The notes beneath the pieces are model-generated. The model worked only from the letters and a program-made list of their open reading frames with translations. It was not told the DNA's origin and searched no databases. The translations under genes were made by a program, and so were the position numbers. 64,000 bases of DNA, from NCBI RefSeq assembly GCF_014646075.1, contig NZ_BMMT01000001.1:459930-523929 (forward strand), written 5' to 3'. This DNA comes from Saccharopolyspora thermophila. GTDB taxonomy: Bacteria; Actinomycetota; Actinomycetes; Mycobacteriales; Pseudonocardiaceae. Positions within the stretch are counted from its first letter, which is position 1, and each line of letters begins with the position of its first letter. Of this stretch, positions 58,550 to 64,000 are shown one piece after another.

Positions 58550-59536
58550 TCAGTCGTTGGCGTGGAGGGCGGCGTTGAGCTCCACCTTGCCGCCGGTACG
58601 TGGCGAGACCTCGATCGCGCCGGTCGTGGAGTTGCGGCGGAACAGCAGGCCGTCCGAGCCGGACAGTTCGCGCGCCTTGGTGATCGTGCCGTCCGGCAGC
58701 ACCACCTTGGTGCCCGCCGTGACGTACAGCCCGGCCTCCACCACGCAGTCGTCACCCAGCGAGATGCCCACCCCGCCGTTGGCGCCGATCAGGCACCGCT
58801 CGCCGATGGAGATGACCTCCTTGCCGCCACCGGACAGGGTGCCCATGATCGAGCCGCCGCCGCCCACGTCGGAGCCGTCGCCCACGACGACGCCCGCGGA
58901 GATCCGGCCCTCCACCATCGAGGCGCCGAGCGTGCCGGCGTTGAAGTTGACGAAGCCCTCGTGCATCACGGTGGTGCCGCTGGCCAGGTGCGCGCCCAGC
59001 CGGACCCGGTCGGCGTCGCCGATGCGCACCCCGGACGGCACGACGTAGTCGACCATGCGCGGGAACTTGTCCACGCTGTAGACGGTCACCGGGCCGCGCG
59101 CCCGCAGCCGCAGCCGGGTCGCCTCGAAGCCCTCCACCGGGCACGGGCCGTGGTTGGTCCACACGACGTTGGCCAGCAGCCCGAAGATGCCGTCGAGGTT
59201 CTGGCCGTGCGGCCGGACCAGCCGGTGCGACAGCAGGTGCAGGCGCAGGTACACGTCGTGCGCGTCGACCGGCTCGTCGGCGAGCCGACCGATCTCGGTG
59301 CGTACCGCGACGACCTCGACCCCGCGGGCCTCGTCGCGCCCGAGCAGCGCGGCCCCGGCCTCGCCCAGGGACTCGGCCGCCTGCTCGGCGGACAGGCGCG
59401 TGGTGCCGGAGGTGCCGGGCTCGCCCAACCGAACGGTGGGGAACCAGGTGTCCAGCACCGTGCCGTCGTCGGTCACGGTGGCCAGGCCCACGCCGTGGGC
59501 GCCCGTGGTCTGCGGGTCGGGAGACTGTGCACTCAT
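58550..59536 (-). CDS. dapD: Tetrahydrodipicolinate N-succinyltransferase (actinobacterial type)
   Basis: This 328-residue left-handed beta-helix acyltransferase has hexapeptide repeats ([40 protein letters not shown]) and the conserved [14 protein letters not shown] block. It succinylates tetrahydrodipicolinate in the DAP/lysine pathway, just before the DapC step. ATG 59536 gives the typical start; the upstream open extension is ignored. Confidence 0.95.
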
Positions 59537-59669
59537 ACCGGGAACCGTAATCCGCGCAGGTGACAGCCGCCCGCATGGGGTCGGCCGGACAGGTGTGACG
59601 TCGGTGCTCCCGCAGCGAAGGCGTCCGGGGTTGCGCCGACCCACGCGCAACGATCCGGATGCGCACATC

Positions 59670-60098
59670 TCAGCGTTCCACGAGGTGGCATCCTGTGGTG
59701 ACCATCAGCACGGTGTTGCGGGCCGTGCCGAACTGGTAGACCGCGCCGTACTCGTCGTTGGCCGTGATCTCGTGGTCGCCGCTGCGGTCCACGATGATCT
59801 CGGGCTCGCCGAAGCCGTACTCGCCGGTGATGTGCCGGATGATCTCCACCGCCCGCAGCCAGTGCTCGTCGGGCAGGTTGCCCGGTGACTTCCACGACTC
59901 CAGCACCCAGCTCTCGGCGTCGGCGACGTCCGGGAACTCGGTGCACCCGGACCGGCTGACCGGGGCCGACATCGACCAGGACAGGGGGCCGAACTCGTGG
60001 TCGAGCCGGTCCCGCAGCCGCTGCTGCATCTGCCGGTAGCGGGCGCTGATCTCGGCCATGCCGGGGCGTTTCTGGAGCAGGATGCGCGGGTCTTCCAC
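59670..60098 (-). CDS. LppA-like protein without signal peptide (copy 2)
   Basis: This 142-residue protein is a clear paralogue of the lipoprotein at 61949-62473. Both share RPxMxEIxARYxxMQQxLRDRL, GCxEFP, YGFxExEVIVDR-type and TGCHL blocks. It starts at GTG 60098 after GGGGGACACC and lacks any signal sequence or lipobox, so it should be cytoplasmic or was truncated. It follows the DUF1023 gene by 45 bp. Confidence 0.75.
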
Positions 60099-60143
60099 GG
60101 TGTCCCCCGTCAGGTTCCGATGGTGGCGCTGGACGTGATCTTC

Positions 60144-61769
60144 CTAGGAGATGATGCCGGAGATCATGTCACCGATGCCCAGCCCGTCGTCCTTGACCGC
60201 CCGGTCGGGGACCCCGGCCACGACGACGCTCATGTTGTACTGGCTGGTGCTGTTGGGCGCGAAGTAGCTGCCGTGGCCCTGGACGCCGTTGAGCGTGCGC
60301 CCGCCGACCGAGGCGTCCTTCGCGGACAGGCCGACCATGCCGTCCAGGTGGCTGGGGTCGCCGCCGAAGCGGCCCAGGTCAGCGACCCAGTCGTTCTCCG
60401 CCTCGATCCGGTAGGTGTGCCCGGCGGGCACGCGGAGGTCGCGCACGTCGTTGGTGCCCACGCCCGGCGACCCGGAGAACACCGCGTCGTCCACACCGTG
60501 GCCGTCCTGCTGCATCGCGTAGCCGGTGATCGTGGAGCCGTAGGAGTGGCCGATGGCGGTCAGGTGCAGGGCGGTGTCGCGCGAGGCGTTGATGCCCGCG
60601 CAAAAGCGGGCCAGCTTCCGGCCGCCCTCCTCGGCGGATGCCGAGGACACCACCGAGCGGTCCGGGTCGGCGATCTCGCGCCACAGCGGGAACTCGGTGC
60701 CCATCCAGGTGACGGTGGCGACCGTGCCGCCGTCGCCGTGCCGGTCGCTCTCGAACTGCGCCTGGCGGCGCAGCTGGTCCATCTGCGTGTCCGCGTGCAG
60801 CGCGCCGTCGACGGTGGTGTTGAAGCCCGGCGTGTACACCGCGACGTGGTCGGCGGTGTCCACGTCGCCCACCGCCACCGCGGCTTTCGCGCGTTCGCCG
60901 CCGGTGTCGAGCAGCAGGAGCTGCCGGTCGCCGCGGGCCAGGATCTTCTCGATGGCGTCGAGGGACCGGAGCCTGGCGTCGATGTCGGCCAATCGCTCCC
61001 GCTCGCCGCGCGTGGTGCCGTCGCCTTCCAGCTCGACCTTTCGCCGGTGCAGCGCCTTGCGCTCCTCCTCGATGCGGGCCCGGTTGGCCCGATCCCGGAC
61101 CGCGGCCGGGATGCCGTCGCGGTTGCCCAGCCAGGCGGGCGGGTTGGCGGCCAGCTTGGCGCGCTCGGCGGGCGGCAGGGATCTCCACCACCTGGCGTTC
61201 TGGGCGGGGGTGCCGTCCTCGGGGATTGCGCCCGCGGCAGCGGTGGTGCGCACCGTCGCGGGCGCGATGGGGCCGCTTTCCGCCGCGACGAGCGCCTTGG
61301 CCAGGGCGGCGTCGGCGCGCTCGGCGTCGTCGAGGACGGCCTGGATCTCGGCGGCCAGTTCGTCGCGGACCCGCCGCCGCTGCTGGTGGACCTCGTGGTC
61401 GGCGGGGACGTCCCGCGAGGGTCGGACGTCGCGGATGGCGCCGTCCTCGGTGATCTCGAAGCCGTGGGCGCGCGCCCGGTGCTCGGCGGCGTCGAGTCGC
61501 CGCCGCACCCGCCGGACGTCCTCGGCGGCTCGGCCGACGGCGTCGCGCACCGCGGTCACCTCGTCGCCCAGCCGCTGGAGCTGCGCGCCGAGGGTGGCGT
61601 GGCGCTTCGCGGACTGCTCGGCCGCCGCCCCGTCCCACCCCTCGGGGTTGCGGGCGGCGCCGAACTCGTCATCGATCCCGGCGAGGTCGCTCCGACGCCT
61701 GCCGAGGGCGCGGAAGACCTCTTCGAGCGCCTCGGGCCTCCACCGGCGCACGTCGGCGATCGACACCAT
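60144..61769 (-). CDS. DUF1023 alpha/beta hydrolase with helical N-terminal domain (copy 2)
   Basis: This 541-residue protein has a WXG/LXG-like helical N-terminal region with coiled coil (residues about 1-280). The DUF1023 hydrolase domain contains nucleophile motif GHSYGST and the SGSPGVGTND block. ATG 61769 gives MVSIADVRRWRPEAL. It is strongly similar to the partial gene at 62470-64000. There is no signal peptide; the N-terminal helical part suggests a type VII secretion-type fold (inference). Confidence 0.85.
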   Translation of the reverse strand: MVSIADVRRWRPEALEEVFRALGRRRSDLAGIDDEFGAARNPEGWDGAAAEQSAKRHATLGAQLQRLGDEVTAVRDAVGRAAEDVRRVRRRLDAAEHRARAHGFEITEDGAIRDVRPSRDVPADHEVHQQRRRVRDELAAEIQAVLDDAERADAALAKALVAAESGPIAPATVRTTAAAGAIPEDGTPAQNARWWRSLPPAERAKLAANPPAWLGNRDGIPAAVRDRANRARIEEERKALHRRKVELEGDGTTRGERERLADIDARLRSLDAIEKILARGDRQLLLLDTGGERAKAAVAVGDVDTADHVAVYTPGFNTTVDGALHADTQMDQLRRQAQFESDRHGDGGTVATVTWMGTEFPLWREIADPDRSVVSSASAEEGGRKLARFCAGINASRDTALHLTAIGHSYGSTITGYAMQQDGHGVDDAVFSGSPGVGTNDVRDLRVPAGHTYRIEAENDWVADLGRFGGDPSHLDGMVGLSAKDASVGGRTLNGVQGHGSYFAPNSTSQYNMSVVVAGVPDRAVKDDGLGIGDMISGIIS

Positions 61770-61948
61770 GCCGCAAACCCCTTTCCAGCACAGGGCTCCC
61801 GGGCGAGCGTCGTACCGGTGCAACACGGCCGCGAGTCCAGACCACCTGTTCGTGCGGCCGAATCAGCCGACCGAGGTGGCCGTGAGCTGGATGACGCCGC
61901 CCGCCAGTAGCGGAGCGGCGACCTCCGCGGCCGGCTCGGGCCGCACGA

Positions 61949-62473
61949 TCAGCCCTGACCGCCCCTGGCGGACGCCAGCAGGTGGCAGCCGGTCCGGACG
62001 CTTATGATCGTGTTGACCGCGGTGCCGAAGTGCAGCTGGGCGCCGAAGCCGTCGCGGAGTTCGACCTTGTGGTCGGCAGGCCGGTCGACAATCACCTCGA
62101 GTTCGGTGAAGCCATACTCGCGGGTGACCTCGACGGCGATCTGCTGTGCCTGCGGCCACTGCGCGTCCGGGATGTTGCCCTCGTGGAGCCACAGGTCCAG
62201 GCTGTGCTTCTCCGCGCCGTCGATGCCGGGGAACTCGCTGCAGCCGGCTTCGCCGAAACCCCCTTCGTTGACCCACGGCGTTGGGAGACCGAGGTCGGCC
62301 GACAGCCGATCACGCAGCTTCTGCTGCATCTCCTCGTATCGCGCGGTGATCTCCTCCATGGACGGACGCTGCTGAAGGACGCTGAGCTGGTCTGACACGT
62401 TTCCCCCGTCGGACGGTCCGGTGCAGCCTGCGGCGAGCAGTGCGCAGAAGGCGAACACGATGAGCTTGTTCAT
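61949..62473 (-). CDS. LppA-family lipoprotein (copy 1)
   Basis: This 174-residue lipoprotein has a signal peptide and lipobox LAAGC with lipidated C17, followed by the LppA-like domain. Two further cysteines (AGCSEFP and RTGCHLL) probably form a disulfide. Its ATG overlaps the upstream DUF1023 stop by 4 nt, so the two are coupled. The family is known from actinobacteria without assigned function. Confidence 0.85.
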   Translation of the reverse strand: MNKLIVFAFCALLAAGCTGPSDGGNVSDQLSVLQQRPSMEEITARYEEMQQKLRDRLSADLGLPTPWVNEGGFGEAGCSEFPGIDGAEKHSLDLWLHEGNIPDAQWPQAQQIAVEVTREYGFTELEVIVDRPADHKVELRDGFGAQLHFGTAVNTIISVRTGCHLLASARGGQG

Positions 62474-64000
62474 GAGAACAGATCCTTGATCCTGGATCCG
62501 GTTTCCTTGACCTTGTCGACCGCGTCCGAACCGAAGTCCTTGGCCTTGTCGACCGCTCCCGCTCCCCAGTCGTGGACCTTGGAACCCAGCTCCTGGGTCT
62601 GGTGCGGTAGGTAGGAGAGCACGTCGCCGACGCCGTCGGTCTTGCCGGTCACGGCCTGCTCCGGGATACCTGCGACGACGACGGCCATGTTGTGCTGGCT
62701 CGTGGTGTCCGGGTTCAGGTAGTCGCTGTGCCCGGTGACCTCCGCGCCCTCCTTCGACTTCGCGGTCGACAGGTCCTTGAACCCCTCCATGTGCGACGGG
62801 TCGCCGCCGAAGCGCGCGAGGTCGGCGACCGCGTCGTTCTTCGCTTCCAGCCGGTACGCGTGGCCCTCGGGGACGTGCAGGTCCTCGATGTCGTTGGTGC
62901 CGACGCCGGGTGAGCCGTAGATGATCGCGTCGTCGACGCCGTGGTCGCCTTTCTGCAGGGCGTAGCCGGTGGTGGTGGAGCCGTAGGAGTGGCCGATCGC
63001 GGTGAGGTGCGGATCGGTGTCCCGGGATTCGTTGATGCCCTTGTAGAAGTCGTTGAGCTTGGCTCCACCCTTTTCGGCCGCATCCGCGCCGAGCACCGAG
63101 TGGTCGTCCTCAGCCAACTCGTCCCACTGCGGCGCCTCGTACCCGATCCACGTGACGGCGGCGACCTCGCCGTGCTTGCCGTGGCGGCGGAGCTCCTGCT
63201 CGGACTCGGTGACGAGTTCCTGCATCTTGTCGTCGTAGTTCTCGAGGCTGCCGTCGACCGTGGTGGTGAAGCCGGGGGTGAAGACCGAGACGTGGTCGGC
63301 GGTGTCCACGTTGCCGACGGCCACGGCGGCCTTGACCCGCTCACCGCTGGTGTCGAACAACATCAGCTGGCGCGGCGGGTTTTCCCGGGCGATGGTCTTC
63401 TCGATGGTGTCGATGGACCTGAGCTTGGCGTCGATCTCCTCGATCTTGTCCTTCTCGTCGTCGGTGACGCCGCCTTCCCGGAGCTGCTGCTTCTGCTCGG
63501 TGAGCTTCGCGCGTTCGTCGTCGATGTTGGCTCGGTTGATCTGGTCGCGGACTTCGGCGGGGATGCCGTCGCGGTTACCGAGCCAGCCGGGCGCGGTTTC
63601 CAGCAGTGCGGCGCGTTGTTCGTCGGACAGCGATTTCCACCACTCGGCGTTGGCCTTTGGGGTGTTCTCCTTGGGCTTCCCGGCGGAGGCGACGAGGGCC
63701 TGGATCTGGGTGGTGTTGGCGGCGTCGGCCAGGGTGCCGCCTTTGCCGGGCTGGATTGTGTCCTGGTTGGCGGCGGTGAGGGCCTTGGCGAGTTCGGCGT
63801 CGGTGCGTTCTGCCTCGTCGAGGATTTTCTCGATGGTGTCGACGAGTTTGTCGCGGACCTGGATGCGTTTTTGTTTGACTGCCTCGAGCTGGTCTTCGGG
63901 GACGTCCTTGGGTGGGTTGACGTCCTTGATGCCGCCTTCTTCGGTGATCTGGAAGCCGTGGGCTCGTGCTTCGTGTTCGGCCTGGGTGAGTTGTTGCTTG
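62470..64000 (-). CDS. DUF1023 alpha/beta hydrolase (copy 1), 5' end beyond the window
   Basis: About 509 residues are visible; the frame enters from the right edge as KQQLTQAEHEARAHGFQITE. The helical coiled-coil region is followed by the DUF1023 domain with GHSYGSTTTGYAL and the YGSPGVGTND block. The C-terminal tail (VHDWGAGAVDKAKDFGSDAV) is absent from copy 2. It is coupled to the LppA lipoprotein gene by a 4-nt overlap. Confidence 0.85.
   Translation of the reverse strand, partial: KQQLTQAEHEARAHGFQITEEGGIKDVNPPKDVPEDQLEAVKQKRIQVRDKLVDTIEKILDEAERTDAELAKALTAANQDTIQPGKGGTLADAANTTQIQALVASAGKPKENTPKANAEWWKSLSDEQRAALLETAPGWLGNRDGIPAEVRDQINRANIDDERAKLTEQKQQLREGGVTDDEKDKIEEIDAKLRSIDTIEKTIARENPPRQLMLFDTSGERVKAAVAVGNVDTADHVSVFTPGFTTTVDGSLENYDDKMQELVTESEQELRRHGKHGEVAAVTWIGYEAPQWDELAEDDHSVLGADAAEKGGAKLNDFYKGINESRDTDPHLTAIGHSYGSTTTGYALQKGDHGVDDAIIYGSPGVGTNDIEDLHVPEGHAYRLEAKNDAVADLARFGGDPSHMEGFKDLSTAKSKEGAEVTGHSDYLNPDTTSQHNMAVVVAGIPEQAVTGKTDGVGDVLSYLPHQTQELGSKVHDWGAGAVDKAKDFGSDAVDKVKETGSRIKDLFS

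Follow-up and report, generated by a model that had tools for sequence, protein, structure and literature searches.

Tandem Abhydrolase_8–LppA units in Saccharopolyspora thermophila: a candidate effector–immunity cassette with a conserved signal-less partner

Gene content of the cassette

Saccharopolyspora thermophila, a soil actinobacterium, belongs to the Pseudonocardiaceae within the order Mycobacteriales, and the stretch of its DNA described here (the window, 64,000 nucleotides) covers positions 459930–523929 of contig C1 (NZ_BMMT01000001.1, 754 kb) in a genome of 5.36 Mb and 59 contigs (G000, hereafter the own genome; same-genus relatives are G001–G021). The subject is a minus-strand cassette at the end of the window, in which hydrolase genes (H) of the Abhydrolase_8 (DUF1023) family alternate with genes for LppA lipoproteins (L). 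Read beyond the window, it has the transcription order W–H3–L3–H2–L2–H1–L1, that is, three tandem hydrolase–LppA units behind a WXG100-like gene (W); H1 and L1 are the representatives in this genome of a second hydrolase (H′) and a signal-less LppA (L′). A preliminary description of the window had read the order as two copies of one DUF1023–LppA unit and had named the sequence past the window edge as a place to seek further copies; the tandem duplication stands, but the units number three, the third (H3, L3) lying past that edge together with W, which adjoins H3. A dapE-like gene, named from sequence, also lies past the edge and forms the other flank of the site. Coordinates are collected in Table 1, where L007 is the locus read past the window end and the window position is the L007 position plus 55070.

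Table 1. Genes and features of the cassette and its boundary, in window coordinates unless L007 is given
Feature	Description	Position	Strand	Pfam match
L1 (L′)	LppA-family protein, no signal peptide, 142 aa, GTG start	59670..60098	-	PF16708, 111.4 bits
H1 (H′)	Helical WxG half and Abhydrolase_8 half, 541 aa	60144..61769	-	PF06259, 124.7 bits
Stub of M	Remnant of a small multi-transmembrane protein gene (its last 27 codons)	61863..61946	-	
L2	LppA-family lipoprotein, lipobox LLAAGC, 174 aa, 4-nt overlap with H2	61949..62473	-	PF16708, 115.8 bits
H2	WxG helical half and Abhydrolase_8 half, 597 aa	62470..64263, passing the window end at 64000	-	PF06259, 139.4 bits
Tract of H2	Identical to H3	63454..64251 (in window 63454..64000)	-	
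L3	LppA-family lipoprotein, lipobox LLAVGC, 4-nt overlap with H3	L007:9260–9784	-	PF16708, 113.2 bits
H3	Abhydrolase_8 hydrolase	L007:9781–11667	-	PF06259, 134.9 bits
dapD-like gene	Tetrahydrodipicolinate succinyltransferase, cassette boundary, outside the cassette	58550..59668	-	

L1–L3 exceed the cut-off of PF16708 (LppA, 26.4 bits) and H1–H3 that of PF06259 (Abhydrolase_8, 20.5 bits). PF16708 is the sole family above cut-off for L1–L3, DUF576 is absent among their Pfam matches at E values up to 1, and the NCBIfam profiles gave no match above cut-off. With the WXG100 profile W scores 24.7 bits, under the cut-off of 27.3, and the N-termini of H are likewise sub-threshold. The WXG/LXG-like helical half which the preliminary description had ascribed to the hydrolases is borne out by a WxG in the turn of the first hairpin in 27 of 29 H proteins, and YxxxD/E stands near the end of W in 38 of 40 (W matches below 20 bits omitted). 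WxG and YxxxD/E in partner proteins constitute the split export signal of ESX substrate pairs. Substrates of type VII secretion systems (T7SS) leave the cell as folded dimers, according to passages of a review (PMC10765036).

The AlphaFold2 model of L1 is confident (predicted local distance difference test, pLDDT, 94.8), and its top match is the solved LppA structure 2v7s (Foldseek E 3.9e-6; VIA Z 15.2, root mean square deviation 2.4 over 139 residues); a DUF4853 protein is also matched by fold. A sequence search for solved relatives of alignments A3 and A4 gave none that was convincing, and 2v7s came from the fold search. The enzyme half of H has the α/β-hydrolase fold (model pLDDT 77), and it aligns in structure with, among others, acyl-protein thioesterase, Lp-PLA2, carboxylesterases and esterases, which leaves the substrate unfixed. 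Alignment gives S409–D460–H499 as the candidate triad of H1, its S, D and H being invariant in 15/15 rows of A4, and in the wider alignment A2 the candidate S and D are kept in 24/24 rows and the H in 21/24. The C-terminal half of H is probably an esterase- or lipase-like α/β-hydrolase, as far as the model predicts.

The lipoprotein signal and lipobox of LppA are present in L2 and L3 and lacking in L1 and in 18 other L′ proteins. The preliminary description was right that one LppA partner begins without its signal region and that the lipobox-bearing one (L2) overlaps its hydrolase by 4 nt; at the dap site generally, H and L overlap by 4 nt in 18 of 19 pairs and by 1 nt in the remaining pair. 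A gap of 45 nt separates the H1 stop from the start of L1, which is preceded by a GGGGG ribosome-binding-like stretch. In addition, more divergent W–H–L cassettes of a second type occur elsewhere in G004, G009, G012 and G013 (loci L053, L059, L062 and L063, respectively).

The signal-less LppA gene within the genus

LppA is present in 18 of the 21 same-genus genomes, in all 18 at a locus between dapD and dapE, and in the three genomes without it (G003, G010 and G019) dapD and dapE stand side by side, the site being empty. Together with the own genome these relatives give 19 genus loci, which were located via LppA. In 19/19 the last LppA gene, L′, has no hydrophobic N-terminus: its best 14-residue hydropathy is at most 0.98, as against at least 1.98 for every L of the genus, and in the own genome the reading frame extended upstream from the L1 core reaches −0.29, compared with 2.68 for L2 and 2.94 for L3. 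Furthermore, L′ forms one clade (support 100/97, and 99/94 in a second tree) with the own L1 inside, and H′ forms one clade (100/100) with the own H1 inside; the trees give no settled position for the own L2 and L3 or for the C-terminal parts of H2 and H3. The preliminary description had taken the signal-less state as a recent loss of one signal peptide. That idea had to be abandoned, since the same signal-less gene is found in all 18 relatives bearing the locus, as a single clade and with no hydrophobic N-terminus. Judged by the trees, the duplication behind H1–L1 predates the split of the compared species, and consequently the signal-less L′ is an old, conserved state. L′ also looks to be under purifying selection in nine of ten pairs, the ratio of nonsynonymous to synonymous divergence (dN/dS) being at most 0.51 in these and 0.22–0.27 in the two pairs with G011. 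At the dapD–dapE site of a family-level relative (L072, in G033) there is one intact L, and a second LppA gene is broken over several frames.

The second hydrolase has fared differently, as H′ is intact in only 4 of the 19 loci (the own genome, G008, G015 and G018). A tblastn search of 17 loci, that is, all except G011 and the own locus, found H′ remnants between L and L′ in G005, G006 and G021 and no remnant in 11 others, and a short match to the last H′ codons lies upstream of L′ in 19/19 loci. All 15 loci without an intact H′ nevertheless retain L′, in 14 cases alongside H and L, and in G011, where no PF06259 match exists anywhere in the genome, L′ stands by itself. Because the loci were located via LppA, the fair claim on the converse is that no genome with a dap-site hydrolase but lacking L′ was seen among the 21 relatives and the own genome.

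Between L and L′, ten relatives without H′ (G001, G002, G004, G007, G009, G012, G014, G016, G017 and G020) carry a further gene, M, whose product of about 110 aa contains several hydrophobic segments; stubs of it remain in the own genome (27 codons) and in G013 (37 codons), and an intact M and an intact H′ are never found together (0/19 loci). The likely ancestral order, reconstructed from these gene arrangements, is W–H–L–M–H′–L′, from which M and H′ would have been lost in separate lineages, with L′ retained.

LppA and Abhydrolase_8 outside the genus

In an order-wide sample of 397 genomes from 85 genera, LppA occurs in 65 genomes and 20 genera, 59 of these genomes lying outside Saccharopolyspora; the Pfam description of PF16708 as "Confined to pathogenic Mycobacterium" is contradicted by this distribution and is out of date. 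Linkage was counted with 86 non-genus LppA rows (the four lowest-scoring omitted) and 117 PF06259 rows (low-scoring and multi-repeat rows omitted). For at least 70 of the 86, PF06259 is matched on the same strand no more than 5 kb upstream; for at least 62 the match is within 1 kb (216–555 bp), and one match lies downstream within 2 kb. The 16 apparently orphan LppA genes are an upper bound because of the omitted PF06259 rows, and two of them (L138 and L139) have a hydrolase or W fragment alongside. The chance of such adjacency is about 0.001 for each gene, a figure resting on assumed gene numbers. Arrays of two to four LppA genes stand behind one hydrolase in L104, L107 and L109, whereas L110 has an LppA array with no hydrolase within the 7 kb examined, and in Actinosynnema sp. 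ALI-1.44 (L159) the hydrolase is split over two frames and adjoins an LppA gene. In Mycobacterium tuberculosis, Rv2797c–lppV and Rv2542–lppA may be further hydrolase–LppA pairs. A lipobox rule recognized 41 of 49 non-genus LppA proteins, and 45 of 49 are lipoprotein-like by eye; of the eight missed by the rule, two in L104 and those of L111 and L131 are lipoprotein-like by eye, and those of L113, L134, L141 and L143 are not, or doubtfully so.

Abhydrolase_8 genes also occur without LppA. Twenty such genes were hand-picked, not drawn at random, and of the 19 that could be parsed, 9 are followed by a small lipoprotein or multi-transmembrane protein, as against 13 of 157 other long genes (Fisher p = 6e-5), although L166 resembles L185 and related loci share control genes, so that the p-value does not come from independent cases; moreover, the lipoprotein counted in L180 is a 65-aa transmembrane protein and a likely lipoprotein in L182 was missed. 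Neither M nor nine partner proteins of the LppA-less hydrolases matched a Pfam family above cut-off. The own genome has an LppA-less Abhydrolase_8 gene on contig C8 (L008:4630-7013), preceded by a gene for a 90-aa YxxxD protein and followed by one for a 121-aa multi-transmembrane protein of no Pfam family, so that the layout of the cassette recurs there with another partner. On contig C3 (77110-78189, L009) matches to pieces of Abhydrolase_8, one of them interrupted by a stop codon in frame, are apparently a decayed copy.

A candidate effector–immunity cassette and its alternatives

From the observed gene order, families and motifs, the signal-less state of L′, the decay of H′ with L′ kept and a breakpoint between H2 and H3 (described below), together with the predicted fold of L, we infer export, toxicity, substrate, binding and the location of L′. 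The evidence leans slightly towards a T7SSa (ESX)-linked effector–immunity cassette with a membrane-tethered immunity protein and a conserved unanchored guardian, so that the effector and immunity likeness raised in the preliminary description is kept as the reading that fits the sequences best, and the tethering function it had named beside this becomes a rival. In its favour count the linkage of LppA to Abhydrolase_8 outside the genus, the two export motifs and four full-length EccC matches in the own genome, the triad invariant in A4, the H–L overlap, the small membrane partners behind LppA-less hydrolases, the H2–H3 tract and the precedent of TslA–TilA (below). In such a system, the helical half of H would pair with W in WXG100 style, the two bearing the split export signal, with WxG in H and YxxxD/E in W. 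The enzyme half of H would work beyond the cytoplasm, the envelope lipids of competitors being its most likely target, and L, translationally coupled to H, would block the enzyme on the outer face of the membrane. L′ would bind the enzyme before export, as a guardian or holding partner, and would have outlived its own hydrolase; its retention in 19/19 loci, as against 4/19 for intact H′, is immunity-like.

Several points weigh against an effector–immunity cassette. It is proposed from sequence and predicted structure, and toxicity, binding and secretion are all predictions. Both core cysteines are retained in 19/19 L′ proteins, which is odd for a cytoplasmic protein, and the pair G008–G018 gives a dN/dS of 2.84 for L′, with a dS of only 0.010. 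Between species the hydrolase half diverges no faster than the helical half (dN 0.168 and 0.167, respectively, between the own H2 and that of G015), and, in contrast to classical polymorphic toxins, the C-terminus of H has one fold in every case. The histidine column of A2 is Gly in 3/24 rows, all from second-type genus cassettes, with GH a few residues upstream, and the H–L overlap is replaced by gaps of 28–66 nt in 4/4 cassettes of this type. By the rule used, 10 of the 19 LppA-less hydrolases show no small lipoprotein or multi-transmembrane partner. Finally, none of the four full-length EccC matches of the own genome is at the locus, the nearest full EccC gene on contig C1 being about 216 kb from the cassette.

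EspG and Eag proteins have secretion-chaperone roles, and L′ might likewise be a cytoplasmic chaperone that holds H for ESX export, and not an immunity protein, a proposal that we consider rather unlikely. L′ has no signal and co-occurs with H in 18/19 genus loci regardless of H′, as would suit a chaperone, and the LppA fold shows a weak likeness to the type VI secretion effector chaperones EagT6 and SciW; at a Z of 4.8–5.4, a range which the tool calls common, an Eag-type fold for LppA was not used. However, L′ is retained in G011, whose genome has no PF06259 match, H and W bear their own WxG/YxxxD signal, and, since LppA proteins outside the genus mostly look like lipoproteins, the hydrolases there manage without a signal-less copy.

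It is doubtful that H is an ordinary exported hydrolase of envelope lipids, not a toxin, with LppA as its foldase, activator or surface tether, even though a membrane-anchored partner translationally coupled to H, the equal conservation of the hydrolase and helical halves between species and the thioesterases, Lp-PLA2 and carboxylesterases among the aligned structures would all suit it. A dedicated activator should not outlast its enzyme, but L′ persists without H′ and is solitary in G011; the cassette is missing from 3 of 21 relatives, in which dapD and dapE are adjacent; and small membrane proteins without a Pfam family follow other Abhydrolase_8 genes. LppA may act as an activator or foldase, but the free-standing L′ would then be left unexplained. 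Less probable still is export of L′ through ESX in a folded state, as a complex with H. Such export would account for the kept cysteines and would agree with the secretion of T7SS substrates as folded dimers in passages of PMC10765036, but the orphan L′ of G011 has no H to accompany.

Recombination has also shaped the locus. H2 and H3 are identical at 808 of 810 nt over their first 270 codons, the two mismatches lying in codons 3 and 4, and after codon 270 identity falls abruptly to 57–88% per 30-codon window. The dS is 0.005 up to this breakpoint and 0.54 beyond it, that of L2–L3 is 0.69, comparable to between-species distances, and H1 differs from both H2 and H3 over its full length. Homogenization of the targeting halves of H2 and H3 is therefore recent, and the enzyme halves and lipoproteins stayed distinct; in terms of the proposed effector–immunity cassette, the unit would have been tripled in this genome and the targeting halves equalized by gene conversion or unequal crossing-over. 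Short-read assemblers have difficulty with exact repeats as long as this one (about 800 bp), but an assembly error of the 59-contig draft is very improbable as the source of the identical 5′ halves, given that unique sequence separates the two copies within a single contig of 754 kb and that they differ at codons 3 and 4. The pattern looks like a common delivery half with several effector–partner versions, although the sharp breakpoint is no proof of a polymorphic toxin, because both C-termini have the same fold. Between G009 and G016 the dS is 0.002 for H and 0.008 for L, as against 0.12 for L′ and 0.21 for W. A horizontally swapped H–L block was considered here and is weakened by sliding identity, which gives two near-identical blocks (about 7.25-9.75 kb and 10.25-12.75 kb in L058/L067), the second downstream, and L′ in the more divergent stretch separating them; on these alignments the pattern is one of mosaic recombination, not of pair-specific exchange.

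The nearest worked-out system is TslA–TilA of the Staphylococcus aureus T7SSb, to which the present cassette is similar in layout without being a member. In passages of PMC10730906, TslA is a T7SS phospholipase toxic solely outside the cell, the lipoprotein TilA binds it with a dissociation constant of 14.2 nM, and til genes occur where the toxin is absent. Both systems, as far as those passages describe TslA, combine a lipase effector (predicted in the present case) that carries a helical T7SS domain with small helical partners and an adjoining lipoprotein in variable copy number, partner genes without a toxin included. In contrast, the lipase of TslA is N-terminal and its helical part C-terminal, whereas the helical half comes first here; the partner is of DUF576 there and of the LppA family here, in an ESX (T7SSa) background; and the present cassette has a conserved signal-less partner. 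The T7SSb immunity arrays EsaG and TipC are alike in that recombination between tandem paralogues reshapes the cluster, but, in passages of PMC9484751, it is the immunity genes that recombine, whereas the targeting half of the effector is homogenized here. The polymorphic toxins with Tox-ABhydrolase in PMC3482391 include α/β-hydrolase toxins linked to WXG, together with immunity families; in the first 300,000 of the 357,715 characters of that paper "DUF1023" and "LppA" have 0 occurrences. LppA and LppB of M. tuberculosis (PF16708, 2v7s) share the family of L1–L3 and the fold predicted for L1, and tandem LppA genes behind an Abhydrolase_8 gene are found in the order as well (the arrays of L104, L107 and L109). 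According to passages of PMC4770551, which name no hydrolase, LppA and LppB are non-essential exported lipoproteins and possible antigens, and lppA/lppB are recombination hotspots under positive selection; positive selection of the mycobacterial genes is reported also in passages of a second study (PMC11056549). No literature linking Abhydrolase_8/DUF1023 to LppA was found in a coverage that excluded bioRxiv and most subscription papers.

More broadly, though only tentatively, LppA lipoproteins across Mycobacteriales, including LppA and LppB, may be immunity proteins against ESX-exported Abhydrolase_8 enzymes, in which case ESX would be antibacterial and Saccharopolyspora would have immunity in two compartments, with one LppA anchored on the outside of the membrane and an unanchored one within, the inner L′ outliving the weapon. 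If this is true, two families apparently without an assigned function, Abhydrolase_8 with a WXG half and LppA, would be given a role, ESX secretion would gain candidate antibacterial effectors, and the recombination and positive selection at mycobacterial lppA/lppB could be read as a bacterial arms race, whether in place of antigenic variation or in addition to it. The signal-less L′, being conserved, makes protection before export a directly testable question.

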